From Pseudolysobacter sp. (lineage in GTDB: Bacteria > Pseudomonadota > Gammaproteobacteria > Xanthomonadales > Rhodanobacteraceae), in the NCBI GenBank assembly GCA_025351985.1, contig JANXUW010000739.1:1-10952 (forward strand): a stretch of DNA of 10,952 nt, given 5' to 3'. Below the pieces are notes generated by a model, which was not told where the DNA came from, made no database searches, and saw only the letters and a program-made list of their open reading frames with translations. Position numbers and translations under genes: made by a program. Shown piece after piece: positions 282 through 10,952 of the stretch. Every line of letters starts with the position of its first letter. Position 1 is the first letter of the stretch.

Positions 282-511
282 GGCGGCAACACTGCGATCA
301 GGAAAGGAAAACGCCAATGCGGCGCAACCGTCATGATAAACCGGACAACCTTTGATCGGCCTCAAATGCGCCAGCCACGCAAAATTTTCTGATGCGTTCG
401 GCGGGCTTGGCGAGCCAGCCTGAACCCAAGCCGCTTGTTGCCGTGCCTTGCGCACATGGCAAAAGCAAATCAAAAGGTTGAAAGCCTAGACTGCGCGGAC
501 TTTTGCCGTGG

Positions 512-517
512 AAAGGA
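512..517 (+). promoter_or_regulatory. Ribosome binding site choosing the GTG start at 525
   Basis: AAAGGA ends 7 nt before the GTG at 525. The same frame is open further upstream, with a TTG at 435 and an ATG at 456, but those codons lack a comparable site and would add some 23-30 residues ahead of the conserved DFDGT motif, which normally sits near the N-terminus in this family. Confidence 0.65.
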
Positions 518-524
518 CTGCACC

Positions 525-1232
525 GTGCTCGACTGGAACATCCTCTGCGATTTCGACGGAACCATCGCACTCAAAGATATTACCGACTCGCTGCTCGAAC
601 GTTTTGCGCGTCCGGGTTGGGAAACGCTGGAGAGCGCATGGCGCTCCGGCAAGCTCGGTTCGCGCGAATGCATGGGCGGCCAAGTCGCCTTGCTCGACGC
701 GAGTCAGGAAGAAATCGATGCGCACCTGGCGAGCATGGAAATCGATCCGGCGTTCCCGGCGTTCGTCGCCGCGGCCAAGACTGCGGGCATTTCGATCACC
801 ATCGTCAGCGACGGTCTCGATTACGCGATCAGCAAGATTCTTGCGCGCTACGACCTCGCCGACCTGCCGATCATCGCCAATCATTTCGAGCCGGAAGGCG
901 CGCGCGAATGGTCGCTGAAATTTCCGTATTCGAGTCCGAGCTGTTCGGTGTCGAGTGGCAACTGCAAGTGCGCCTGCGTCAGCCGCGCGCGCAAACCGCC
1001 GCACAATATTCTGCTGATCGGTGATGGCGCTTCGGACTTCTGCGCTGCCGACGCGGTCGATCATGTGTTCGCCAAGGCGCGCCTGATCGATCACTGCACC
1101 TCGGCCGGCATTCCGCACACGCCGATCGCCGGTTTCGCCGAAGCGCTGGCGTTGCTGCCCGCGCTGATCGCCGGTCGCCTGACCAAGTTTTCTTCTCTCA
1201 ATGTAGTCCAGGATATTTCTTCCAATGCGTGA
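525..1232 (+). CDS. MtnX-like HAD-IB family phosphatase
   Basis: The protein is 235 aa from the GTG start. It carries the full set of haloacid dehalogenase motifs: DFDGT with nucleophile D9 and acid/base D11, motif II Ser in IVSDGLDY (S95), a Lys in the Cys-rich stretch GNCKCAC (K148), and IGDGASDFCAA with the Mg2+-binding Asp pair D167 and D171. The long cap after motif I and the size fit the HAD-IB (SerB/MtnX-like) group, which removes phosphate from small metabolites in the cytoplasm. True MtnX acts in methionine salvage, but no other salvage gene is here, so a different phosphorylated intermediate is likely. Its stop codon overlaps the start of the aminotransferase gene by 8 nt, implying translational coupling and a shared pathway. 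The Cys cluster around residues 140-151 might bind a metal, but this is only a suggestion. Confidence 0.82.
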   Translation: MLDWNILCDFDGTIALKDITDSLLERFARPGWETLESAWRSGKLGSRECMGGQVALLDASQEEIDAHLASMEIDPAFPAFVAAAKTAGISITIVSDGLDYAISKILARYDLADLPIIANHFEPEGAREWSLKFPYSSPSCSVSSGNCKCACVSRARKPPHNILLIGDGASDFCAADAVDHVFAKARLIDHCTSAGIPHTPIAGFAEALALLPALIAGRLTKFSSLNVVQDISSNA

Positions 1233-2595
1233 TTCCGAGCTTCTGGCCGACGAGGCCAAATACTGTTCCTTCGGCGATACCGTTCATTATTCCGATCCGC
1301 CGAAAATCTTCACGCGCGCCGAAGGCAGCTATCTCTACGACAGCGCCGGCACCGAATTTCTCGACCTGCAGATGTGGTATTCGGCGGTCAATTTCGGTTA
1401 TTCGAACGAGCGCCTGAACAACGTCCTTAAGAAGCAGATCGATATCCTGCCGCAGGTCGCCAGCCAGTATCTGCATCCGACCAAGATCGAGCTGGCCAAG
1501 ATCGTGGCCGAAGACGCGAAGAAAAAATGGGGTCTCGATGGCCGCGTGCATTTCAACGTCGGCGGTTCGCAGTCGGTCGAGGACTCGCTGAAAATCGTGC
1601 GCAATGCGAAAGGCGGCAAGAGCCTGATGTTCGCGTTCGAGGGCGGTTACCACGGACGCACGCTTGGTGCCTCGGCAATTACGTCGTCGTATCGTTATCG
1701 CCGTCGTTACGGCCATTTCGATCGCGCCCAGTTCATCGAATTTCCGTATCACTTCCGCGGCCCGAAAGGCATGTCGAAAGAAGAATACGGCGAGTTCTGC
1801 GTCGCCAAGTTCGAGCGCCTGTTCGAGACCGAATACAACGGCGTGTGGGATCCGAAAGCCGGCCAGTGCGAATACGCCGCGTTCTACGTCGAGCCGATCC
1901 AGGGCACGGGCGGTTATGTCATTCCGCCGCCGAATTTCTTCAAGGGCCTGAAGCGCGTGCTCGACAAGTTCGGCATCCTAATGGTGGTCGATGAAATCCA
2001 GATGGGTTTCTTCCGCACCGGCAAGCTGTGGTCGATCGAACATTTCGGTGTGACACCGGACGTGCTCGTGTTCGGCAAGGCGCTGACCAACGGCCTGAAT
2101 CCGCTCGCCGGCATCTGGGCACGCGAAGAATTGATCAATCCCACCGTGTTCCCGCCGGGCTCGACGCACTCCACATTCGCATCCAATCCGCTCGGCACCG
2201 CGGTGGGCCTGGAAACGATGAAGATGCTGGCCGAAACCGATTACGAAGCGATGGTCATGGCGAAGGGCGCGCATTTCCTCGCGGGCCTGCAAGACCTGCA
2301 GAAACGCCACAAGGAAATCGGTGACGTCGATGGTCTGGGTCTCGCGTTGCGCGGCGAAATCTGCGAAGCCGATGGTTTCACGCCGAACAAGAAGTTGCTC
2401 GACAAGATGGCCGATCTCGGCCTGGCCGGCGAGCTCGAACACAACGGCAAGAAGATGGGCCTCGTGCTCGATGTCGGCGGTTATTACAAGAACGTCATCA
2501 CGTTCGCGCCGTCGCTGCATATCAGCACGGAAGAAATCGATCTCGGCATCGCGCTGCTCGATCAGCTGCTGACCAAGGCGAAGAAGCTGGTGTGA
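1225..2595 (+). CDS. Class III PLP-dependent aminotransferase
   Basis: This 456-aa protein has the length and layout of fold-type I class III transaminases. Visible are a phosphate-binding region around GGSQSVEDS (113-121), the PLP-stacking motif GGYHGRTLGAS (140-150), YVEPIQG with E223, VVDEIQMGFFRTG with D256 that contacts the pyridine nitrogen, the Schiff-base lysine K285 in FGKALTNGLNPLAG, and THSTFASNPL (314-323) contacting the phosphate of the other subunit. It moves an amino group between an amine or amino acid and a keto acid or aldehyde in the cytoplasm. The C-terminal motif reads TFAPSLHIS where many relatives have a PPLxI motif, so it does not fall obviously into GABA, ornithine, DABA or acetylornithine transaminases. 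The ATG lies inside the end of the phosphatase gene (ATGCGTGA). AGGA at 1210-1213 is a somewhat distant ribosome site. The substrate is unknown. Confidence 0.9.
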   Translation: MRDSELLADEAKYCSFGDTVHYSDPPKIFTRAEGSYLYDSAGTEFLDLQMWYSAVNFGYSNERLNNVLKKQIDILPQVASQYLHPTKIELAKIVAEDAKKKWGLDGRVHFNVGGSQSVEDSLKIVRNAKGGKSLMFAFEGGYHGRTLGASAITSSYRYRRRYGHFDRAQFIEFPYHFRGPKGMSKEEYGEFCVAKFERLFETEYNGVWDPKAGQCEYAAFYVEPIQGTGGYVIPPPNFFKGLKRVLDKFGILMVVDEIQMGFFRTGKLWSIEHFGVTPDVLVFGKALTNGLNPLAGIWAREELINPTVFPPGSTHSTFASNPLGTAVGLETMKMLAETDYEAMVMAKGAHFLAGLQDLQKRHKEIGDVDGLGLALRGEICEADGFTPNKKLLDKMADLGLAGELEHNGKKMGLVLDVGGYYKNVITFAPSLHISTEEIDLGIALLDQLLTKAKKLV

Positions 2596-2689: not shown

Positions 2690-3022
2690 TCAGGCGGCGA
2701 TTTCGTGCTGAATCGCGCGCTCGACAAACTGGTTCAAGCTGATCCCATTGGCCGCAGCCAATTCAACGGCACGCGCATGTAGTTCGGGATCGATGCGCGC
2801 ATTGAATTTTCCCGAGAAGGATTTAAAGGGCTCCATTCCCTTCTCTTCGCACATTTCGAGATAGATCCTGAGCGAAATCTTGCCCTCGGCGCGAAGCGAA
2901 CGAATTGTGGTGGCATAAAAATCGGCACCACCACTCAAACCGAGAAATTCACCTCGAAACATATCGATCTCGGGATCGTAATTTATAACGGCCCTTTGGC
3001 CTTCGATAGTCATGATATTCAT
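2690..3022 (-). CDS. hicB: HicB-family antitoxin with ribbon-helix-helix C-terminus
   Basis: The 110-aa protein begins with a partial HicB fold (MNIMTIEGQRAVINYDPE, then EFLGLSGGADFYATTI) and ends with an Arc-like ribbon-helix-helix domain, GKFNARIDPELHARAV then ISLNQFVERAIQHEI (about residues 70-108). In this family the N-terminal part masks the HicA toxin, and the RHH dimer binds the operator and represses the operon. The start at 3022 is set by a GGAG at 3030-3033 seven nt upstream and by the ATGA overlap with the hicA stop; an in-frame codon at 3049 is less likely. The gene follows the toxin, the usual order. Its base composition is more AT-rich than that of the flanking genes, which fits acquisition by transfer. 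Confidence 0.9.
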   Translation of the reverse strand: MNIMTIEGQRAVINYDPEIDMFRGEFLGLSGGADFYATTIRSLRAEGKISLRIYLEMCEEKGMEPFKSFSGKFNARIDPELHARAVELAAANGISLNQFVERAIQHEIAA

Positions 3023-3273
3023 GGTTTCACTCCATTGGATTCCAGCCATTTGCGGATGTTTGCAATTGCACCTTTATCGGTATCAGGAGAAGGATGCGGA
3101 CGATGAAAAACCCGCGCATCGCCGAATAGTTCGACGCCTACGCGCGACCCTTCCCGCTCGCTGATTTCTGCACCCAAGGCAACCAACAGCGCTTCAATAT
3201 CCTGCCATTGTATGTTCGCCGAAGCCGGATGGATGAAGATGGCATTCAGCGTCTTTGCGTGTTTCCGCTTCAT
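3019..3273 (-). CDS. hicA: HicA-family mRNA interferase toxin
   Basis: The 84-aa protein starts MKRKHAKTLNAIFIHPASAN and continues with WQDIEALLVALGAEIS, EREGSRVGVELFG, FHRPHPSPDTDKG and a C-terminal IRKWLESNGVKP. This is the small double-stranded-RNA-binding-like fold of HicA toxins, which cut mRNA and stop translation until HicB binds them. Classical HicA proteins have a catalytic His in a GSHH-type motif; here the equivalent place reads GSR, as in a common proteobacterial subfamily with the FHRPHP motif, so the catalytic residue may lie elsewhere, perhaps in FHRPHP. ATG 3273 is preferred over an in-frame TTG at 3291, which would fall inside the upstream palindrome. No good Shine-Dalgarno precedes the ATG, which would keep toxin synthesis low relative to antitoxin. 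Confidence 0.9.
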   Translation of the reverse strand: MKRKHAKTLNAIFIHPASANIQWQDIEALLVALGAEISEREGSRVGVELFGDARVFHRPHPSPDTDKGAIANIRKWLESNGVKP

Positions 3274-3279
3274 GTACCG

Positions 3280-3302
3280 ATGGTACTGCAATCCAGTACC
3301 AT
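3280..3302. promoter_or_regulatory. Perfect 9-bp inverted repeat, likely HicB operator
   Basis: ATGGTACTG (3280-3288) and CAGTACCAT (3294-3302) are exact reverse complements around a 5-bp centre. The element ends 6 bp before the hicA ATG. A further half-like GTACC (3274-3278) faces GGTAC (3282-3286), giving a possible third half-site. Ribbon-helix-helix antitoxins bind such repeats, so HicB autorepression is the natural reading. In RNA the same repeat could form a hairpin over the toxin translation start, but only if the transcript begins far enough upstream. Confidence 0.7.
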
Positions 3303-3342: not shown

Positions 3343-4437
3343 TTATTTCGACTTGGTCTTGCTCGTCTTCGGCTTGGCCGGCTCGCTGTAACGCGCGAAT
3401 CCCGGAATGCGTTCCAGCACCCAGCGTAGCGGATTTTCGACCCACGCGCGCGTGACGAAATCCTCGTGTTTGGTATCGGGATCGGTGCTGAGGATGGTCA
3501 CGCCGCCTTGTGAAAAATTCTTCGGTGGCACGGTCTTGTAGCGCACGTTCGCTTCTTTCAATTCCTGCATCAGCGCTTCGTTGCCTTCGCGGCTGGACTC
3601 GGTGTACGCGCTGAGAAAAAACGTCGGCCAGCGCATCTGCTCGACCCAACTTGTGAACTTGTCGATATTGCCGTACATCGCATCAAGCATCACCACGCCG
3701 CGCAAACGCCGGCCCGCGCCGCCGATCGCCAGTGACCACGCCGCCGGCAGATAACCGCCGCTGTAGGCGACCAGCACGACGGGCATTTGCGAGATGCGCG
3801 ACTCGGCGCGTTTGTCGCCGTACAGTTCCACCAGACGCACACCGGCCTCGCCGATGAATTCGATGAATCCACGGCGCTGCCAGAAACGTCCGGCGCTCGA
3901 ATCGGCGGCATCGATTGCGAATTGCGGCGCGACCAAAACCGCGTTTGCACCGGATCTGGCGAGCTGCTCGACCACTTGCTGGCGCTCGATCACATCGCGC
4001 GTCAGCAACGCGCCGTTGCCGTGAAAAAACACCACCATGAGTGCGGGTTTGCGGATGTCGAATCCGGCCGGCATGTACAACAGCACGCGGCTATCGCGAT
4101 AGATCGCATCTTCCCAATGCACGCCGTCGCGCGCGGTGTGGCCGGTGCGATTGCCTTCACTGGTATCGAGAAAATGCTTGCCGGAATCCGGGATCAGACC
4201 GCGATACGGAAACGGTGCGGTCTTGAAATTGACAAGCGCGAGTTTCGCTGCAGGCAATGCTGCGAGCGGCTTTTTCGCCGCATTTGTCGGCACGGTTTTC
4301 GCAGCGGTCGATGGCGCGGTTTTGGCGATCGGTTGCGCGGCCAAAACCACGCCTGACAGCAACGTCATAACCAACAGCGCCGCGCAGGATTTCAGCAGCG
4401 ACAAACCGCGTGGCAATCGTTGCGACGGCGTCGGCAT
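3343..4437 (-). CDS. Secreted alpha/beta-hydrolase-fold protein
   Basis: The 364-aa precursor has a basic N-terminus, a hydrophobic core (about residues 18-32) and an Ala-rich cleavage region near VVLAAQ, so it is probably exported by Sec. An Ala/Lys/Pro/Thr-rich linker (35-66) precedes the catalytic domain. VVFFHGNGALL (135-145) looks like the oxyanion strand-loop, and VAYSGGYL (223-230) is a nucleophile elbow with S226. D252 in VVMLDAMYG and H324 in TKHEDFV are candidate triad members. It is therefore likely an esterase, lipase or similar hydrolase in the periplasm or at the surface; the substrate is unknown. A Lys/Thr/Ser-rich tail (353-364) follows. Its ATG lies 6 nt after the stop of the membrane methyltransferase-like gene, so the two share a transcript. 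A structural family member lacking activity is possible. Confidence 0.8.
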   Translation of the reverse strand: MPTPSQRLPRGLSLLKSCAALLVMTLLSGVVLAAQPIAKTAPSTAAKTVPTNAAKKPLAALPAAKLALVNFKTAPFPYRGLIPDSGKHFLDTSEGNRTGHTARDGVHWEDAIYRDSRVLLYMPAGFDIRKPALMVVFFHGNGALLTRDVIERQQVVEQLARSGANAVLVAPQFAIDAADSSAGRFWQRRGFIEFIGEAGVRLVELYGDKRAESRISQMPVVLVAYSGGYLPAAWSLAIGGAGRRLRGVVMLDAMYGNIDKFTSWVEQMRWPTFFLSAYTESSREGNEALMQELKEANVRYKTVPPKNFSQGGVTILSTDPDTKHEDFVTRAWVENPLRWVLERIPGFARYSEPAKPKTSKTKSK

Positions 4438-4443
4438 GTTGCG

Positions 4444-7119
4444 TTATCCCGCGGCTTTTTTCAGCGGCAGGAAGATCGCGAAAAACGCCGGAATCGCGAG
4501 CAGATACGCACCGCCACTGACCTGCAAACACGCGGCCAAACCGAACGAGGTCGCGATGATCGGCACCGCCGCCGCGCCGACTACCGAGAACGAGCCGTTG
4601 ATGCCCCACGCCCACAGGAACATTGCGTCCTTGCCGAGGCGCCCGAGCCAGGTCATCGCGATCGACATCGGGAAACCCATGAGGAATGCGGGCGGCGCAA
4701 TCAATGCAAACGAGAACAACAGACGTAACGCATAAGGCAGGCTGCCGAGGCGATCGAGCACCGGATCGAGCAGGAAACTGTAGGCGATCAACAGCGCTGC
4801 AATCGCGACGAAGATGCGCGGCATGACGGTACGTGCCCGTTCCATGTAGCGCTCCGAAACCAGACTACCAAGCCCAGAGAAGACCAGCATGCCAGTGATC
4901 AGGATCGATGCGGAAATGGTCGGATTGCTGAGCGCCAATACGAACTTTGCGATCAGTGAAACTTCAACCACGATATAACCGAGACCGAGGCACGCAAAAT
5001 ACAGGATGGTGCGGAACTGGCCCGGATAACGGCTGAAAATCGTACGCCAGCCGAACGCGACCGGGAACGCGATCAGCACGATCGCCGCGAGCAGCGCGAT
5101 GCCGAACGTCGCCCACACCAGCAGGTAACCCCACTCGTCCTGGAACAGTTCGAGGCGGTCGGTAACGCGCGTGAGATCGGCGGGTTTTACATACGCGGCG
5201 AAGTACGGATGGTTGTTGGTCAGCGGCCGCGCATCGAATACGTAACGATGCGCGATGTCGTCCCAGCCGCCGTGGATCAGGCTGCTCCACGCGAGTTGCG
5301 CGAGCGTAGTCGCGGGCAATTGCGTCGGCGCTGCGGTGGACGTTGTATCAGTCCCATCCAAGGGCGGCGCGGTCGGATCGGCCATCGGCTCGGCAGAACT
5401 GGGGCTCGCAGTTGTCCCAGCATCCGGCTCGGTCGGGCCAGCCGCTTTTACCGTGGCGTCCGCACCGAAGATGCCGGCTTCGTACGCATCAAGCGTCGCG
5501 GTCGTTTGCGTCGTATCGTAGACGAATCCGGGATAGGTGATTTCATCGAACGACATCGCATGCGAGTGCGCGTGCAACTTGGTCATGTCCTCGGCGCTGA
5601 AACCGCCGCGCTTGTACAACACCGTGGTGGTCGAGAGATAACTCGACACCGCATAAAAACGATCGTCGATCGCCGCGCCAGGCTCAAGACTGCGCGCCGC
5701 GTCGGCCATCGTCGCGTACAGCTTGAGGATGGATTTCGGCGGTTCTTCCTTGTTCCACAACGTTACCGACAACACGCCGCCCGGCGCCAGCGCGCGCATG
5801 TACGCGGTCATCGCTTCGCGTGTGTAGGCGTACTTTTCGACGATCGCAAAACCGCCGGGATTCGACAAGCCCGCCGAATCGGCGAGACTCAGATCGATCA
5901 CATCGAAACGCTGATCGGTATTCGCCAGAAACAAACGTCCGTCGTAATCGATCGCGGTGAGCTTGGGGTTGCCGAGTACATCGCCACTGAATTCGCGCAG
6001 GGTCTTGTCGTTGCGGAACGCCGCGAGAATCGCCGGATTGGATTCGGCCACGGTGACGTGCTTCGAATAACGCAGCGCGACTTCGGTCGAGATGCCGCCG
6101 CCGAACTGCACCACGAACGTGTTCGGATCGGACTTGATCTGGTACGGATAGACCATCGGCAGGTAGCGGAAATACGCGCTTTCCGCATCCGACAGATTGC
6201 GCATGATGCCGAACGGGCCTTCGCCGTCGATGTACATGCCGAGATAGGCATTGGCCGGCATCTCGGGCAGGTTGAACGCGGCGTTGTCGGAAAGTCCCGG
6301 CGCGAAATGCAGGTAGGAACTCGAATAGACTTCGAGGTAACCGAACGGCGATGCGTTCTCGTAGATGCGCTGGTTGTCCGGAAATTTGCGCGCGTAGGAA
6401 ACGCCCTTGTAATCCGACACCGCGAGCTTGGAAATGCCGAAATAATCCGGCAGGAAAATCTGCGTCGCGAAACACAGCAGCGCGACCACGGTCACGCCGA
6501 TCAGATTTTTCGTGCTGCGCTGATGCGCAAACCACATCAGGCTGCCGATCAGCCACAACAGCAGCGGCACGACGATCAAATCATCAGGCCGGAAAACATA
6601 CAAGGTCGCCAGCACGACGAGACCGCCGACACCGGCACCGGCGAGATCGGCGAAATACACGCGCCCGAAGATCGCCTTCATGCGCAGGAATACCGCGCCG
6701 AGGAAAAACGCGCCGCTCAGAAATGGCAACAGATAAAGCACGAAGTTCGCGAACAGCCGCCATTTCTGCAGCGGGTCGGAAACCAGGAAAATCGCGTTGA
6801 ACGGAATCTGCTGCGCAAGCAGGTTCGACGCGATGATGAGCGGCCCGAACAATAGCAACGCCACATTCGCCACACCGCGCCAATGTCGCTCGAACCATGC
6901 ATTGGCAGCGCACATCACCACGCTGGTGAGGCCGAAACCCATCATCGCCAGGCTCACCACCATCGAGCCGAAATGCGCCCAACTGCCGACGGCGAAGACA
7001 CGCATGATGACGATCTGCAGCGCGATGATCGCCGCCGATACCATCGCCACGGCGAGGTAAAAAAGCAGCGCGGGTTGTTCGTTGGCGCCGGTGCGCGGTG
7101 AAGATTTGCTGAGGGTCAT
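4444..7119 (-). CDS. Polytopic membrane protein with spermidine-synthase-like methyltransferase domain
   Basis: This 891-aa protein has an N-terminal block of about seven hydrophobic helices (about 18-220), then a soluble region with a Rossmann SAM-type fold, and a C-terminal membrane block (about 664-886). In the soluble part NTFVVQFGGGISTEVAL (333-349) is the glycine-rich motif I, VAESNP with E359 the acidic strand-2 end, and FDVIDLSL (405-412) motif-II-like. LGLGYIVVEVSLI and WAWGINGSFSVVG in the C-terminal helices are typical of the large bacterial membrane proteins usually annotated as spermidine-synthase-like or SAM-dependent methyltransferases. Whether it makes a polyamine, transfers methyl or aminopropyl groups, or only keeps the fold is unknown. 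A Pro/Thr/Ala/Asp-rich stretch (about 555-604) divides the soluble part. It is followed at once by the secreted hydrolase gene, suggesting a common envelope task. The start at 7119 lacks a strong ribosome site. Confidence 0.82.
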   Translation of the reverse strand: MTLSKSSPRTGANEQPALLFYLAVAMVSAAIIALQIVIMRVFAVGSWAHFGSMVVSLAMMGFGLTSVVMCAANAWFERHWRGVANVALLLFGPLIIASNLLAQQIPFNAIFLVSDPLQKWRLFANFVLYLLPFLSGAFFLGAVFLRMKAIFGRVYFADLAGAGVGGLVVLATLYVFRPDDLIVVPLLLWLIGSLMWFAHQRSTKNLIGVTVVALLCFATQIFLPDYFGISKLAVSDYKGVSYARKFPDNQRIYENASPFGYLEVYSSSYLHFAPGLSDNAAFNLPEMPANAYLGMYIDGEGPFGIMRNLSDAESAYFRYLPMVYPYQIKSDPNTFVVQFGGGISTEVALRYSKHVTVAESNPAILAAFRNDKTLREFSGDVLGNPKLTAIDYDGRLFLANTDQRFDVIDLSLADSAGLSNPGGFAIVEKYAYTREAMTAYMRALAPGGVLSVTLWNKEEPPKSILKLYATMADAARSLEPGAAIDDRFYAVSSYLSTTTVLYKRGGFSAEDMTKLHAHSHAMSFDEITYPGFVYDTTQTTATLDAYEAGIFGADATVKAAGPTEPDAGTTASPSSAEPMADPTAPPLDGTDTTSTAAPTQLPATTLAQLAWSSLIHGGWDDIAHRYVFDARPLTNNHPYFAAYVKPADLTRVTDRLELFQDEWGYLLVWATFGIALLAAIVLIAFPVAFGWRTIFSRYPGQFRTILYFACLGLGYIVVEVSLIAKFVLALSNPTISASILITGMLVFSGLGSLVSERYMERARTVMPRIFVAIAALLIAYSFLLDPVLDRLGSLPYALRLLFSFALIAPPAFLMGFPMSIAMTWLGRLGKDAMFLWAWGINGSFSVVGAAAVPIIATSFGLAACLQVSGGAYLLAIPAFFAIFLPLKKAAG

Positions 7120-7232
7120 CGAGTTTTACTTAACCTTGGGATTGCGCTGGCAACTTGAGCTGCCGAACCGGCTTGACGTAGCGTGACCAGCAACAGCGGC
7201 GCGCACCACATCCACGAACTATTGGAAACGAA

Positions 7233-7344
7233 GCCGTCATTCCAGCGAAGGCTGGAATCCATTTTGACTTTGCAGGCGCGCATCACCCCCGTACCTACAG
7301 GAGCAAGATCAAAATGGATCCCAGCCTGCGCTGGGATGACGGGC
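7233..7344. repeat. Imperfect inverted-repeat element (REP/MITE-like, VIPAQAGIH type)
   Basis: The left arm (7233-7267) and right arm (7309-7344) are about 35-bp imperfect inverted copies, both beginning with a GTCATNCCAGCG-type end and closing with CATTTTGA against TCAAAATG. About 41 bp separate them. Each arm holds its own perfect 8-bp hairpin with a 4-nt loop (7239-7258 and 7318-7337). The chance translation VIPAQAGIH is familiar from dispersed non-coding repeats in proteobacterial genomes. The element fills most of the gap between the Pcm-like gene and the membrane methyltransferase-like gene. RNA through it would fold strongly and could weaken or end read-through. No transposase is present. 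Confidence 0.8.
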
Positions 7345-7392
7345 AAAAAACGCAAATCGAAAAAATGTCGAGCGTAAAACGTGACGCCAGTA

Positions 7393-8358
7393 TTACTGCT
7401 TGCCAGCCGCAGGCTTGGCCGGCGGCGGCGTAATACCTTCGACCTTGTCGGTATCCGGCTTGCCGTTGTGGGTGGCCTTGATGACGTCGCCTTCAAGCTT
7501 GGTGAACGGCACGAACGGCACGATCTTGCCGTTGTAGATGTCGCTGCGCGTGACCGTGATGGTGCCGTCCGCGGCCTGATTTTTGACCACCTTGAGCACG
7601 CGTTGCGCACCGGGCGGGCCGACTGGAATGACCATGATGCCACCGGCCTTGAGCTGCTTGAGTAGCGGCGGCGGCACGTGATCGATACCGCAGGTGACAA
7701 TGATCTTGTCGAACGGACCGTTCTCTTCCCAGCCGTAATAACCGTCGGCCTGTTTCGAGGTGATGTTCTTGAATTCGTTGTAGCCTTTCTTGATCAAATC
7801 GTCGTACACGCCGCGCGTGCGTTCGGCCAGCGGCTTGATGATTTCGATCGAGAAAACCTTGTCGGTCAGGTGCGACAGATACGCCGACTGGTAACCCGAA
7901 CCGGTACCGATTTCGAGCACCTTTTCGCCCTGCTTCACATCGAGCGACGCGGTCATGTGGCCGACCAGGTGCGGGCCGGAAATGGTCACGCCATAACCGA
8001 TATCGAGGAACGCGCTGTCGTAGGAATGGGCGCGATTGATCGGACGCACGAAGTCTTCGCGCGGCGTCAGCAGGAATGCGCGCTTTTCGCGATCGGCGCT
8101 CAAATCCTTGTTGGTCAACATTGCCTGCAGACGATCCCAGCGCTTGCCGACGAAGGCCGCATCTTCGCCACGGTTTTTCACCATCCACGCGACGAAGTTT
8201 TCGCGCGTGTCAAGCGGCGGCGCGATATCCCACGTGAATGGCAATACCGCAACCGGCGCCGCGGCAGCAGCCGCTGCGGGCGCGGCATGAGAAAGCAGCG
8301 GCATGATCGATGCCGTCAGCACAGCGAGAGAACCCAAAACAAAACCACGTCTTTTCAC
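7393..8358 (-). CDS. Exported Pcm-like protein-L-isoaspartate O-methyltransferase
   Basis: From the GTG at 8358 the protein is 321 aa. It begins MKRRGFVLGSLAVLT, with a twin-arginine RRxFxL-type motif, a hydrophobic stretch and SHAAPA as a likely cleavage region (after about residue 25), so Tat export is probable. The catalytic half matches the Pcm family: TISGPHLVGHM (125-135), the SAM-binding motif VLEIGTGSGYQS (147-158), acidic E172 in FSIEI, and a later GGIMVIPVG (239-247). Pcm methylates isoaspartyl residues in damaged proteins. Cytosolic Pcm is about 210 aa; the extra length here is an N-terminal region of about 100 residues and a Pro/Ala/Lys-rich tail. Export is odd because SAM is a cytoplasmic cofactor, so it may be carried out already bound or the domain may have another role. 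An in-frame ATG at 8370 and a GTG at 8400 are alternatives, but a ribosome site favours 8358. Confidence 0.85.
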   Translation of the reverse strand: MKRRGFVLGSLAVLTASIMPLLSHAAPAAAAAAAPVAVLPFTWDIAPPLDTRENFVAWMVKNRGEDAAFVGKRWDRLQAMLTNKDLSADREKRAFLLTPREDFVRPINRAHSYDSAFLDIGYGVTISGPHLVGHMTASLDVKQGEKVLEIGTGSGYQSAYLSHLTDKVFSIEIIKPLAERTRGVYDDLIKKGYNEFKNITSKQADGYYGWEENGPFDKIIVTCGIDHVPPPLLKQLKAGGIMVIPVGPPGAQRVLKVVKNQAADGTITVTRSDIYNGKIVPFVPFTKLEGDVIKATHNGKPDTDKVEGITPPPAKPAAGKQ

Positions 8359-8364
8359 GTTTAT

Positions 8365-8368
8365 CTCC
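8365..8368 (-). promoter_or_regulatory. Ribosome binding site choosing the GTG start at 8358
   Basis: Leftward, GGAG is followed by the 6-nt spacer ATAAAC and then GTG at 8358. The GGAG overlaps the in-frame ATG at 8370 and makes it a poor start. With the GTG start, the twin-arginine signal begins at residue 3, as expected for a real signal peptide. Confidence 0.7.
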
Positions 8369-8441
8369 ATAACTCGAATAGTCGAACTGGCAAGGGACAC
8401 GCGGCAGGAACACCGCGATATTCATTTCATTTGAAGCGGAT

Positions 8442-9653
8442 TTACGGCGCCTGTCTCAGTGCGATTACCGCATTGAGACCACCGAAAGCAAACGAATTTG
8501 ATAACGCCGCACGCACGGTTTTTTCGCGCGCGACATTCGGCACGTAATCGAGATCGCAGGCCGGATCGGGATCGACAAAATTCAGCGTCGGTGCCAACAC
8601 GCCGTCGCGCAATGCACCGATCGCCGCGACCAGTTCGATCGCGCCGGCCGCGCCGAGCGCATGGCCGTGCATCGATTTGGTCGACGACACCGCAAGCGCA
8701 TCGGCATGCGTGCCGAACACGCGCCGGATCGCCGCGGTTTCGGTCGGATCGTTGGCCGGCGTGCCGGTGCCGTGCGCATTGATGTAACCGACATCGGTCA
8801 CGTTGAGTTTTGCTTCGGACAATGCGCGCTCGATCGCACGTGCCGCACCGATTTCAGACGGAAAAACGATATCCGCCGCATCCGCCGACATGCCGGCACC
8901 GGCGAATTCAGCGAGAATATTCGCGCCGCGTGCCTGCGCATGTTCCAACGTTTCGAGCACAAAAATGGCCGCGCCTTCACCGAGCACGAGGCCACGGCGT
9001 TGTTTGCTGAACGGGCGACACGTGTCATCGGCGAGCACGCGCATTGCTTCCCATGCCTTGGCGCAGCCGAGCGTGATGCAGGCCTCGGTGCCACCGGTCA
9101 CGGCCGCATCGACCATCCCGCTGCGCACCATGTGGAACGCTTGCGCCATCGCGTGATTCGACGACGCGCATGCGCTGACCACGGCGAACGCCGGGCCGGT
9201 AAGCTTGAATTCGATACTGATCTGGCACGCCGGCGCGTTCGACATCAGGCGCACGATGCTGAGCGGATGCGGCCGCGCGTTCTCGCCATATAGCCGCCGC
9301 GAGGCTTCGTCATGCGTGGTCTCGCCGCCAACGCCGGTGCCGATGATGCACGCGGTGCGATCGCCGAGTTCGTCGGCCGAAAAATCGATGCCGGATTGTT
9401 TGACCGCCTCGCGCGCCGCAACGAGTGCAAACTGCGAAACACGATCCAGCAGCATCAATTGTTTTTCGCTGAAATGCGCGAGCGGCTCGAAGCCACGCAC
9501 TTCTGCCGCGATGCGCGCCTTGAGCAAACTCGCATCGATCCGACTGATCGGCGCGATACCCTGGCGGCCTTCGCGCATCGCATTCCAGCACGTCGGCGCA
9601 TCGAGTCCGAGCGCCGACAACGAGCCCATTCCGGTAATTACGACGCGCCGCAT
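8442..9653 (-). CDS. Beta-ketoacyl-ACP synthase, FabF-like
   Basis: The 403-aa protein has the length and motifs of type II elongating ketosynthases. C162 in VVSACASSNHA is the acyl-accepting nucleophile, H294 in NAHGTGTPANDPTE and H329 in STKSMHGHALGAAG complete the Cys-His-His triad, and K326 is the conserved lysine. The C-terminal NSFAFGGLNAVIAL is the usual substrate-pocket loop. It condenses an acyl chain with malonyl-ACP in the cytoplasm. The gene lies 63 nt downstream of a dedicated acyl carrier protein, without ketoreductase, dehydratase or malonyltransferase nearby, so it probably belongs to a specialised acyl pathway rather than housekeeping FabF. The ATG at 9653 has only a weak GAGA-like ribosome site. 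A housekeeping FabF copy is the main alternative, but the neighbouring acyltransferase and transporter argue against it. Confidence 0.93.
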   Translation of the reverse strand: MRRVVITGMGSLSALGLDAPTCWNAMREGRQGIAPISRIDASLLKARIAAEVRGFEPLAHFSEKQLMLLDRVSQFALVAAREAVKQSGIDFSADELGDRTACIIGTGVGGETTHDEASRRLYGENARPHPLSIVRLMSNAPACQISIEFKLTGPAFAVVSACASSNHAMAQAFHMVRSGMVDAAVTGGTEACITLGCAKAWEAMRVLADDTCRPFSKQRRGLVLGEGAAIFVLETLEHAQARGANILAEFAGAGMSADAADIVFPSEIGAARAIERALSEAKLNVTDVGYINAHGTGTPANDPTETAAIRRVFGTHADALAVSSTKSMHGHALGAAGAIELVAAIGALRDGVLAPTLNFVDPDPACDLDYVPNVAREKTVRAALSNSFAFGGLNAVIALRQAP

Positions 9654-9716
9654 GCGAATCTCGTTCGAGGTTTGAATTTATGCATCTTTCGAATCGTCTT
9701 GAGTGTGACGGATGCG

Positions 9717-9983
9717 TCAGCTCAGCGCAGGCGCGGCGGCTTCTTTTTCGGCGACCAGGCGTTCGACCGCGGTCACCAGACCCTGCACCGAATCGGTATC
9801 GACGGTCGGGTCGCGATCGGGCAAGGTGATCTTGAATTTGTCTTCGAGCTCGAAAATGATCTGCACCGCGTCGAGCGAATCGATTTCGAGATCCTTCAAG
9901 GTGGATTCGAGCGTGATCTTGCTCGCCTCAATGCCGGACTCTTTGGCGATGATGGCGAAAATGGTTTCCTGCACATTACTCAT
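9717..9983 (-). CDS. Acyl carrier protein
   Basis: The 88-aa acidic protein has the three-helix acyl carrier pattern: helix I (about 4-16), the motif LEIDSLDAVQIIFELEDKF with the phosphopantetheine-accepting serine S36 in DSLDA, and a final helix (about 66-80). EIDSLDAVQ differs from the DSLDTVE of housekeeping AcpP, and a short AEKEAAAPALS tail follows. It carries growing or finished acyl chains for the ketosynthase encoded just downstream. The spacing of 63 nt and common direction indicate an operon. The gap of 111 nt to the upstream transporter gene may hold its own promoter, although I could not find a convincing -35/-10 pair there. Confidence 0.95.
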   Translation of the reverse strand: MSNVQETIFAIIAKESGIEASKITLESTLKDLEIDSLDAVQIIFELEDKFKITLPDRDPTVDTDSVQGLVTAVERLVAEKEAAAPALS

Positions 9984-9989
9984 TCATTT

Positions 9990-9993
9990 CTCC
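9990..9993 (-). promoter_or_regulatory. Ribosome binding site of the acyl carrier protein gene
   Basis: A leftward GGAG stands 6 nt before the ATG at 9983. A second ATG at 9987 is out of frame and stops after three codons (ATG AAT GAG TAA), overlapping the true start. The site is strong and suggests high expression, as expected for a carrier protein. Confidence 0.65.
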
Positions 9994-10094
9994 GGGATAC
10001 CCTGTTCCTGCGCATAGTTTAGCGTATGCGCCGGTAAACTTTGAGATTTTACGCGGCAGCGTTTATCGCGCAGACGGCTTGCGTCGCGTTGCGT

Positions 10095-10502
10095 CTAATG
10101 ATCCGCAGGCTTCGACGTATCCGAACCGAGCATTAGGATGCCGCAGACGATGACTGCCGAACCGAGCAGCTTCGACCAGTTCAGTACTTCGCCTACCACC
10201 AGAAACGACGCAATCATCACTGCCACGAACACGATCGCGCTGGTTGGAAACGCGCTGGACAAGGATGACTTGCGCAAGATCACCATCCACGCCAGAAACG
10301 CGCCGAGATAACAGCCCGCCGCGCTCCACAACCACGGCGAGCGTGCCGCATTGAGCGCAGCCGCGAGCGTGAATTCGAACGCACCCGATTGCTCCCCCGC
10401 CAATTTCAGCGAAACCTGACACAAGGTTTCGAAGCCGAGCAAAATCAGCCACGACAGCGCCACAGGATTCAACCAGCGCGCGGGTTTTGCGATGAGGTTC
10501 AT
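10095..10502 (-). CDS. Small four-helix transporter, SMR/EamA (DMT superfamily)
   Basis: From the ATG at 10502 the protein is 135 aa with four hydrophobic helices (about 12-34, 55-76, 82-105 and 109-127). E25 in LLGFETLCQVSLKLAG lies in helix 1, where small multidrug resistance proteins such as EmrE keep an essential Glu. SFLVVGEVLNWSKLLGSAVIVCGILML is the typical helix 3-4 end of EamA/SMR members. Such short proteins work as dimers in the inner membrane and move cationic or amphipathic molecules. The ATG overlaps the stop of the acyltransferase gene by 4 nt (ATGA), and AAGGA at 10512-10516 precedes it, so an upstream start at 10709 is rejected. It may export or flip the acyl product made by its neighbours, like ArnE/ArnF-type flippases. 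The substrate is inferred from context only. Confidence 0.82.
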   Translation of the reverse strand: MNLIAKPARWLNPVALSWLILLGFETLCQVSLKLAGEQSGAFEFTLAAALNAARSPWLWSAAGCYLGAFLAWMVILRKSSLSSAFPTSAIVFVAVMIASFLVVGEVLNWSKLLGSAVIVCGILMLGSDTSKPADH

Positions 10503-10952
10503 CGGTTCGGTTCCTTGATGTGGTGCGCCAGATCGGCGTCGAGACGGTCGAGGCGAAACAGGCGCTCGACCACAGCGAAGATGCGATCGAGCAGACGATT
10601 GCGATGGCGATACCACAACCAGTTCGCCGCAAGACGACTGCCGAGGCGCAGTTTTTCGTGATGCAATCCCTGCCCGCTTTGATACAGCGGAATGCGATTT
10701 GCCAGACAATAACGCACGTTTTCCATCCAGCTCACGTAATACAAGCTGTACTTGCGCGCCACGGCGTAATCCATGCCGAAAAACTTGTCGAGCAAGCGTT
10801 GCTCGTCGTGCAGCACCAGGTTGAATGCGATCAATTGCTCATCCAGCCAATAGGTGACGCAACTGGCGCGCTCACCGAGTTCACGCAATACGCTGCTGAA
10901 ATACGCCTGGGTGAGTTCCTCGAATTGCAGTTCGGCGTTCTCGTAAGTCGCA
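10499..10952 (-). CDS. GNAT/FemAB-like acyltransferase, C-terminal part (cut by the right edge)
   Basis: The leftward frame is open at the right edge and ends at 10499, giving 150 residues. It runs through YWLDEQLIAFNLVLHDEQ (about 36-53), FFGMDYAVARKYSLYY, then PLYQSGQGLHHEKLRLGSRL and WYRHRNRLLDRIFAVVERL. A beta-rich core followed by the SGQGxxxxKLRLG motif and a basic helix fits the second acetyltransferase-like domain of FemAB/BioF2-type GNAT proteins. These pass acyl or aminoacyl groups from a carrier (CoA, ACP or tRNA) to an amine. Because an ACP and ketosynthase follow, an acyl-ACP donor is plausible. The TTG at 10888 is internal, not the start. It overlaps the transporter gene by 4 nt and is probably translationally coupled to it. 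The N-terminal domain and true start lie outside the window. Confidence 0.75.
   Translation of the reverse strand, partial: ATYENAELQFEELTQAYFSSVLRELGERASCVTYWLDEQLIAFNLVLHDEQRLLDKFFGMDYAVARKYSLYYVSWMENVRYCLANRIPLYQSGQGLHHEKLRLGSRLAANWLWYRHRNRLLDRIFAVVERLFRLDRLDADLAHHIKEPNR

Follow-up and report, generated by a model that had tools for sequence, protein, structure and literature searches.

Four leftward genes stand in close order at one end of a Pseudolysobacter sp. contig, and they raise the question of what a GNAT-type transferase, a small transporter, a stand-alone acyl carrier protein and a ketosynthase could be making together, and with which other genes. The window, by which we mean the whole stretch of 10,952 nucleotides that was analysed, is the complete contig C561 of a metagenome-assembled genome in 766 contigs, so the transferase gene runs off its end and is incomplete. 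Gene calls made with a simple script place all four genes (GNAT, SMR, ACP and KS) where the first-pass annotation had put them. Two genes elsewhere in the window, at 435-2595, belong to the same system. The six features are as follows:

435..1232, forward strand: HAD phosphatase of the MtnX/PHOSPHO1 type, called HAD (PF12710, PF06888; TIGR01489 95.3 bits, cut-off 81.55)
1225..2595, forward strand: class III PLP aminotransferase, called AT3, 456 amino acids (PF00202, 249 bits; K285)
8442..9653, reverse strand: dedicated FabF-like ketosynthase, KS, 403 amino acids (PF00109 and PF02801)
9717..9983, reverse strand: dedicated acyl carrier protein, ACP, 88 amino acids (PF00550; S36)
10095..10502, reverse strand: small EamA/SMR protein, SMRa, 135 amino acids, weakly ArnE/ArnF-like
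10499..10951, reverse strand: C-terminal 150 residues of a FemAB-like tandem-GNAT transferase, FemAB (PF13480)

The KS and ACP motifs noticed earlier are real, and both active sites are intact. The KS has what a FabF-like ketosynthase should have, namely both KAS domains (ketoacyl-synt N and C, 165 and 123 bits in Pfam) and a Cys-His-His triad: it keeps C162, H294 and H331, together with K326, which, like S36 of the ACP, we take to be active-site residues. Among NCBIfam models it passes PRK07314 (424 bits, cut-off 387) and stays below the cut-off of the fabF equivalog TIGR03150 (447.9 of 493.75 bits). The ACP is an acyl carrier protein by its PP-binding domain (43.7 bits, cut-off 20.8), in which the DSL serine S36 is kept, and it scores below the own cut-off of every NCBIfam ACP model. 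SMRa matches EamA at 26.8 bits, slightly under the cut-off of 28.2, and its best NCBIfam match is ArnE at 28.1 bits, far below the cut-off of 92. SMR proteins are paired in relatives; the partner in the window's genome, SMRb, lies on another contig (C84; L182). The 150-residue FemAB piece matches PF13480 at 35.1 bits (cut-off 22), and the full-length protein in the same-genus genome G001 (L117:17236-18369) has 377 amino acids and is 89% identical over that piece. The GNAT and SMR genes overlap by 4 bases (ATGA), with 111 bases between SMR and ACP and 63 between ACP and KS. On the forward strand, HAD and AT3 overlap by 8 bases. HAD has D39 and D41 intact and passes the cut-off of PF06888, which we take to be the family containing PHOSPHO1. 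The true start of HAD is uncertain and may lie further in.

Housekeeping fatty acid synthesis can be ruled out as the role of the KS and ACP, because the window's genome has a separate FabF/AcpP pair on contig C247; the KS is 43% identical to that FabF and the ACP 31% identical to that AcpP over 59 residues. The two genes are therefore not the only such pair of the genome, and their description as private stands. So does the reported lack of a ketoreductase and dehydratase, since no reductase or dehydratase was recognised among the recurring neighbour genes.

In relatives the genes belong to a single system with as many as ten members: HAD, AT3, ABH (an alpha/beta hydrolase), ACP, KS, FemAB, ARG (a ureohydrolase-like protein), DegT and the two SMR proteins SMRa and SMRb. 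These ten recur together, and that they form one system is well supported. The neighbourhood comparison proposed in the first-pass annotation places the original four within about 20 kb of each other in 30 of 47 family genomes; in the other 17 regions, some of them cut by contig ends, they are not together, which counts against the model. All ten lie within about 20 kb in 15 of the 47 ACP-carrying family genomes. The most constant members in the loci seen are HAD, a class III aminotransferase and ABH, usually accompanied by FemAB, ARG and the SMR pair, and L184 and L185 have a unidirectional eight-gene run, ABH-SMRb-SMRa-DegT-HAD-AT3-FemAB-ARG. The ten-gene set is found within about 20 kb in Novimethylophilus kurashikiensis, although its KS is just 47% identical, and ACP-KS-HAD-AT3-ABH stand together in the distant genomes G162 and G186. 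Carriers among the named loci are Rhodanobacter, Dyella, Luteibacter and Novimethylophilus, with Pseudomonas added by protein names. What had looked like a short four-gene pathway is thus a set of up to ten genes plus an exporter, in which the ACP/KS pair is optional. Other neighbours were rejected as core parts: the reference for an adjacent desaturase gene (DES) matched the window and L118 only, and adjacent PCMT, spermidine-synthase-like and esterase-like genes had matches only in the window, L118 and L196.

Among 59 genomes of the family, HAD was found in 49 and not in 10. The 10 HAD-negative genomes gave no ACP, AT3 or ARG match at the thresholds used, no FemAB, and no permease (of the exporter described below) at less than 1e-100, and three genera (g6, g15 and g26) each contain both states. 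FemAB was not found in 4 (G017, G037, G042 and G050) of 18 HAD-positive genomes that were hand-picked for this search, mostly as ones where it had not been seen before; this counts against the model. HAD keeps an aminotransferase partner: 8 HAD-positive family genomes lack an AT3 match at 1e-100, and in 7 of them the gene after HAD encodes a class III aminotransferase resembling HemL. This partner, which may simply be the heme enzyme, passes the curated HemL cut-off of PRK00062, not that of TIGR00713; we counted its passing PRK00062 against an amine-lipid model. In a phylum sample of 398 genomes (three samples, taken as the same genomes because their listed handles agree), AT3 is present in 25, with at least 75% identity in 17 of them, the window's genome counted. 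All 16 genomes with ARG and all 12 with the permease fall among those 25 (hypergeometric P = 1.5e-22 and 1.9e-16, values that ignore kinship and have no unrelated variable gene as a control). At most 4-6 candidates were scored per genome in the phylum searches, which list genomes without a match only in part, and the family and phylum presence lists were compiled by hand from individual searches.

The exporter is encoded by a single gene run comprising an outer-membrane channel, a DevC-like permease, a DevA-like ATPase and an adaptor. Exporter and channel are inherited with the gene set even when they lie elsewhere in the genome: counting those at another locus, the exporter is in 42 of the 49 HAD-positive family genomes and in none of the 10 HAD-negative ones. 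No permease was found in the other seven HAD-positive genomes (G000, G002, G011, G012, G023, G033 and G046), a point against the model; a permease match in G005 (2.5e-42, 33%) was treated as a paralogue. Exporter matches occur at 41 of 104 loci, several of these being the same genome twice, after leaving out L191, L194 and L195 (31-36% matches to the ATPase only) from an initial 44. The best NCBIfam matches of permease and ATPase are DevC and DevA, and DevB ranks third for the adaptor. The run has DevA, DevB and DevC homologues and a TolC-type channel in one operon, as a DevBCA-type exporter does, but the likeness goes no further than homology: no protein reaches the cut-off of a Dev model, and the permease, at 64 of 290 bits for DevC, falls so far short that this too counts against the model. 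With an SMR pair and a DevABC-type exporter, the export machinery is larger than the single small transporter first proposed. Cyanobacterial DevBCA-HgdD shares the run of channel, permease, ATPase and adaptor, as well as lipid-type biosynthesis genes that lie next to it or are inherited along with it. Here those genes are a stand-alone ACP/KS pair and an aminotransferase, not heterocyst glycolipid synthases, the biosynthesis enzymes of the heterocyst glycolipid system, and glycolipid export would be an analogy. DevBCA exports heterocyst glycolipid, according to the available text of PMC8277102, which also reports that drugs can be exported by DevBCA paralogues; we counted the latter against lipid export.

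We propose that this set of about ten genes and its partner exporter, kept or lost together in distant bacterial groups, probably builds and exports a nitrogen-containing lipid. We favour, tentatively and at somewhat less than even confidence, the reading that the four genes of the window work in a single system that makes and exports an amine-containing lipid, the product that we infer. AT3 would aminate a phosphorylated carbonyl compound to an amino-alcohol phosphate, a candidate being serinol phosphate from dihydroxyacetone phosphate, and HAD would remove the phosphate before or after acylation. The KS would condense malonyl units on the dedicated ACP into a special acyl chain, using the general reductases of the cell, and FemAB would transfer this chain to the amine to form an amide. 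Trimming of the head group or of an ester might fall to ARG and ABH. The lipid would be flipped over the inner membrane by the SMR pair and taken outward by the DevABC-type pump and outer-membrane channel. DegT may add an amino-sugar-like step in some lineages. The leads for this chemistry were the PF06888 match, the DevA, DevB and DevC matches, and a dihydroxyacetone phosphate aminotransferase and HAD phosphatase described as a pair for the Campylobacter capsule in the available text of PMC11800397. As far as that text goes, the Cj1437/Cj1435 serinol-phosphate route similarly has an aminotransferase and a HAD phosphatase around an amide bond; its target, however, is a capsule sugar acid, and the resemblance of AT3 and HAD to it is one of predicted function. 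A search of the available literature found no description of the gene set, searches on Rhodanobacteraceae aminolipids and on Novimethylophilus gave nothing relevant among the matches listed, and protein-name searches (best 120 of 4,532 and best 120 of 1,216) returned names and no function. It is possible, though we hold this with more doubt, that an undescribed class of lipid extends across Pseudomonadota: an amide in which a dedicated, KS-extended chain is joined to an amino alcohol, itself the product of a phosphocarbonyl aminotransferase and HAD, and which an SMR pair flips and a DevABC-type pump, its genes often distant, exports.

Fatty-acyl transfer to an amine by FemAB is itself something we infer. 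The predicted structure (pLDDT 91.5) has as its top Foldseek matches the aminoacyl-tRNA-dependent peptide synthases Sbb17 and Sba18, followed by MprF-type DUF2156 domains and FemX, and a PDB sequence search gave no match at E up to 1. Because the best structural matches are aminoacyl-tRNA-dependent and not acyl-ACP enzymes, we counted them against acyl transfer. FemAB might instead use aminoacyl-tRNA, the product being a small aminoacylated amine (peptide-like or streptothricin-like) with DevABC-type export, to which ACP/KS would add a fatty tail in some lineages. ARG could fit such a product. It has a ureohydrolase fold by Foldseek, and its motifs GSGDxHH, DNHPD and DKD, presumably metal ligands, are invariant in 32 of 32 rows; by modelled fold and metal-ligand-like residues it is a ureohydrolase, the kind of protein that chemistry derived from arginine or guanidine would call for, with putative guanidine hydrolysis (PDB sequence matches only at E of 0.09 or more). 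It also fits that some clusters with FemAB gave no ACP/KS; the flanks examined of Pseudomonas, f16, f2 and f61 clusters likewise gave none. Conversely, no FemAB was found in the flanks examined of f57 loci that carry ACP/KS. Neither need therefore act on the other. We nevertheless consider an aminoacylated amine rather unlikely. The fold in common with the tandem-GNAT transferases FemX, MprF and Sbb17 comes with TM-scores of only about 0.48-0.58 at 10-16% identity, the same Foldseek list includes an acetyl-CoA-type tandem GNAT (2wpw), and no peptide-forming or tRNA-synthetase gene was recognised among the recurring cluster genes.

The ACP/KS pair could also be an independent accessory of fatty-acid synthesis, a second FabF/ACP that tunes chain length and whose place beside the amine system is due to chance or to shared regulation. 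Relatives of the pair do keep other company: the same family adjoins an LpxD-like gene in the alphaproteobacterial loci L022 and L060 (L060 by eye), and in L066 its neighbour, again by eye, resembles a type III PKS gene. In L119-L121, L130 and L008, ABH alone of the cluster genes accompanies it; L010 and L126 have no cluster gene with it. In a broad scan of 80 loci with KS relatives, the flanks examined held FemAB in 13 and ARG in 13, counts that weigh against our model. Within the family, however, the dedicated ACP is in 47 of the 49 HAD-positive genomes and none of the 10 HAD-negative ones, and the KS adjoins it in 46 of the 47, the exception being G046, with a weak ACP match (1.5e-9) and no adjoining KS. 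ACP/KS also adjoins HAD/AT3/ABH or FemAB in the window's family, in Novimethylophilus and in f57, three lineages far apart. We judge a separate accessory unlikely.

Weak matches of DegT, SMRa and SMRb to the ArnB, ArnE and ArnF models suggest an Arn-like envelope modification, in which DegT would make a polyprenyl-carried amino sugar, the SMR pair would flip it as ArnE/ArnF do, and an ArnT-like transferase would attach it to an acceptor such as lipid A. An ArnT-like PMT protein is indeed present in L009, with relatives in L012, L151 and L161 (L151 and L012 are probably the same genome). Those are few loci, however, every score falls far short of its curated cut-off, and ArnA, ArnC and ArnD were not recognised among the recurring genes. 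DegT orthologues were not found in G000 and G001, of the window's genus (best: 34% partial matches), nor in Pseudomonas and f61 loci. The full aminoarabinose pathway was rejected because the ArnB/E/F/T equivalog matches all miss their cut-offs, and we regard the Arn-like reading as improbable. A sphingolipid (ceramide) pathway with FemAB as ceramide synthase is very improbable: proteobacterial clusters (SPT, AcpR, AasR, CerR, CerS) likewise use a specialised ACP and N-acyltransferase, as the available texts of PMC9386255 and PMC11324152 describe, but here there are a KS, a HAD and a class III aminotransferase, and serine palmitoyltransferase (SPT), acyl-ACP synthetase (AasR) and ceramide reductase are not among the annotated cluster genes. 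A literature search on a bacterial ceramide synthase with GNAT returned no papers.

If the amine-lipid reading is right, cultured bacteria of the genera Rhodanobacter, Dyella, Luteibacter, Novimethylophilus and Pseudomonas would possess a conserved lipid, either secreted or in the envelope. It would have been overlooked because annotation treats its genes separately, under the labels arginase, GNAT, aminotransferase and efflux pump. Since a single exporter is so closely co-inherited with the set, the function of both pathway and pump becomes testable.

The window spans the whole of contig C561 (10,952 bases) in assembly G000, which consists of 766 contigs, with a completeness of 86%. The leftward order GNAT-SMR-ACP-KS that the first-pass annotation described from the right end of the window is present among its features:

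3-473, leftward: desaturase fragment
435-1232, plus: HAD phosphatase, overlapping AT3
1225-2595, plus: class III aminotransferase (AT3), overlapping HAD
2690-3291, minus: HicA/HicB toxin-antitoxin pair (PF07927, PF05534)
3343-4437, minus: 364-aa protein (EST)
4444-7119, minus: spermidine-synthase-like membrane protein (SPDS), 891 aa
7393-8400, minus: PCMT-like gene
After the ACP, leftward: FabF-like ketosynthase (KS), 403 aa, with C162, H294, H331 and K326 intact
After the EamA/SMR gene, leftward: acyl carrier protein (ACP), 88 aa, with S36 intact
Next after the GNAT piece, leftward: EamA/SMR protein, 135 aa, with an ATGA overlap
Right end of the window, leftward: FemAB-like GNAT (FemAB), C-terminal 150 residues only

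G001, a genome of the same genus, carries in sequence a ureohydrolase-like gene (ARG), SMRb, an alpha/beta hydrolase gene (ABH), FemAB, SMRa, ACP, KS, PCMT, SPDS and EST, with AT3 and HAD on the opposite strand. The G000 counterpart of the remaining cluster lies on contigs C84 (FemAB, ABH, SMRb, ARG) and C511. Because C84 overlaps the window (352 bases, 98.3%) and C511 overlaps C84 (515 bases, 89.7%), the contig sequences suggest that the MAG contains more than one strain. The HicA/HicB pair separates AT3 from the 364-aa gene in the window; these genes are just 68 bases apart in G001, suggesting insertion or loss of the pair. The PCMT-like/SPDS/364-aa trio (window 3343-8400, minus strand) also follows FemAB-ARG in G009 (L196:12371-17276), and may consist of accessory genes. 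An MBOAT acyltransferase and an unassigned 344-aa protein are encoded 5' of ARG in G001 (L117:12279-14721) and also on C511; they were unmatched in the remaining family regions examined around the ACP.

The ACP and KS are not the sole such pair in G000, so the first-pass annotation escapes refutation on this ground: contig C247 has a fab cluster with a separate ACP and FabF. Identity is 43% between the window KS and this FabF, and 31% over 59 residues between the window ACP and this AcpP. The dedicated ACP (E-value 1.5e-9 or better) is present in 47 of the 59 genomes of the window's family (G000-G058). We took as its neighborhood one region of up to about 20 kb per genome (two overlapping regions in G001 and G032), some of which are cut by contig ends, and found KS nearby in 46 genomes, ABH in 38, SMRb in 37, SMRa in 36, FemAB in 34, ARG in 33, DegT in 29, HAD in 23 and AT3 in 20. 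The four genes of the first-pass annotation are together in 30 of the 47 ACP regions and not together in 17, and the complete ten-gene set is within the region in 15. In a few Rhodanobacter-type loci, an ArnT-like PMT-family glycosyltransferase gene lies within the cluster (L009:5952-7667).

HAD occurs in 49 of the 59 family genomes (E up to 1e-20). The 10 HAD-negative genomes have no match to this ACP, to AT3 (1e-100), to ARG (1e-10) or to FemAB (0/10), and no match to the DevC-like permease below 1e-100. Three genera (g6, g15 and g26) each mix set-positive and set-negative genomes, so the set was gained or lost repeatedly. Eight HAD-positive genomes have an AT3 match weaker than 1e-100. In seven of them (G043, G054, G009, G024, G032, G041 and G056) the gene after HAD encodes a class III aminotransferase resembling HemL, which scores over the PRK00062 HemL cut-off and under that of TIGR00713 and may be the heme enzyme; the G009, G024, G032, G041 and G056 copies have 83-90% identity to the G043 copy. 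In the eighth, G042, AT3 was recovered as two pieces. A search of the 49 gave no ARG match in G017, G025, G037, G042, G050 and G055; among 18 tested, FemAB went unmatched in G017, G037, G042 and G050, with a partial match in G025 and one nearly full and one partial match in G055.

Many clusters are adjoined by a run of genes for an outer-membrane channel, an FtsX/MacB-type permease (Pfam domains FtsX and MacB_PCD), an ATPase and an adaptor protein. Their NCBIfam matches are all below cut-off: the permease scores best against DevC (64 of 290 bits), the ATPase against DevA (224 of 296) and the channel against NodT (181 of 210); among the adaptor's matches, DevB ranks third (75 of 129). At locus L235 the run continues directly into HAD, ABH and SMRb. 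Among family genomes, the exporter was found in 42 of the 49 with HAD and in 0 of the 10 HAD-negative ones. It is remote or on a separate contig, yet present, in G001, G009, G032, G079, G094, G484, G330 and G378; in G001 it lies at 3.48 Mb, versus 1.32 Mb for the cluster, and still co-occurs. We did not find it in G000, whose genome is incomplete.

In a phylum sample of 398 genomes from 213 genera, ARG (E up to 1e-12) occurs in 16, AT3 (E up to 1e-150) in 25 and the permease (E up to 1e-60) in 12. All 16 ARG and all 12 permease genomes are among the 25 with AT3 (hypergeometric P = 1.5e-22 and 1.9e-16; 6.9e-19 and 2.9e-14 excluding the window's family), although these counts are non-independent because the ARG, AT3 and permease genomes span 9, 13 and 8 genera; ARG was unmatched in 9 of the 25 AT3 genomes. 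Loci L184 and L185 have a single unidirectional run ABH-SMRb-SMRa-DegT-HAD-AT3-FemAB-ARG, and L186 has the same on the other strand. The f16, Pseudomonas-type and f61 loci have the same genes in rearranged order, and their fetched flanks yielded no ACP/KS; the ARG relatives of the Pseudomonas-type loci carry the name arginase in Pseudomonas species. In Novimethylophilus kurashikiensis, HAD-AT3-ABH-ACP-KS-FemAB-ARG is followed by DegT-SMRa-SMRb in the opposite orientation. G330 has FemAB/ARG/SMR (L191) and, on a separate contig, HAD/AT3/ABH with a second FemAB. Smaller groupings are ACP-KS-HAD-AT3-ABH (G162, G186), HAD-AT3-ABH (G257; with a weak FemAB match in G158 and G244) and AT3, SMRa, SMRb, ABH and HAD (G101). 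G128 has an AT3 relative (55% identical) without an adjacent HAD; by eye, a sulfotransferase-like gene follows it (L225:9412-11732; no NCBIfam match).

A broad scan of 80 KS loci speaks against a fixed tie between KS and the other cluster genes: within the available flanks, FemAB was found at 13 loci, ARG at 13, ABH at 15 and HAD at 9. This ACP/KS type also lies 3' of an LpxD-like N-acyltransferase in Rhodobacteraceae (L022:8618-11212, where the LpxD-like gene exceeds the LpxD model cut-off) and Xanthobacteraceae (L060:2431-4990, by eye) relatives. An LpxD-like match occurs in 42 of the 80 loci, a count that may include cross-matches to other LpxA-type genes; the pairing may mean that a second LpxD is supplied with its own dedicated acyl chains. 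In a Bryobacterales MAG the ACP/KS adjoins what by eye is a type III polyketide synthase-like gene (L066:8646-11191), with no such match in the remaining 79 loci.

The recurring genes very probably form one system, judging by linkage and co-inheritance that include distant partners. From the enzyme types we infer the following chemistry. AT3 would aminate a phosphorylated carbonyl, and the MtnX/PHOSPHO1-type HAD phosphatase would strip the phosphate; a dihydroxyacetone-phosphate aminotransferase and HAD phosphatase of Campylobacter are a functional precedent (PMC11800397). The window HAD is above the MtnX-like subfamily and PF06888 cut-offs, the L195 copy is below the former (79.0 of 81.55 bits) and the L082 copy narrowly below the latter. 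The HAD family has a conserved cysteine-rich motif, C...SGxCKC (window copy 435-1232). KS and the dedicated ACP, without reductases, would make a special acyl chain finished by general fatty acid enzymes, and FemAB would form the amide. The SMR pair and DevABC-type pump would export the lipid, by analogy with DevBCA, an exporter of heterocyst glycolipid, although DevBCA paralogues also export drugs (PMC8277102). DegT, SMRa and SMRb match Arn models far under cut-off.

The predicted structure of FemAB (pLDDT 91.5) has a tandem GNAT fold, whose nearest matches are Sbb17/Sba18, MprF-type domains and FemX, with TM-scores around 0.48-0.58. The amide-lipid model is weakened because these closest folds use aminoacyl-tRNA, and because FemAB and ACP/KS are each found in clusters where the other went undetected. 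ARG is predicted (pLDDT 87.1) to have a ureohydrolase fold, with guanidinase, agmatinase, arginase and formimidoylglutamase as the nearest matches (TM-scores around 0.44-0.56), and its metal-ligand-like residues are invariant in 32 of 32 alignment rows.

Searches of an open-access paper collection for combinations of the gene names turned up no description of the set. The components are known kinds of enzyme and dedicated-ACP systems already exist; the product is possibly a categorically new lipid.
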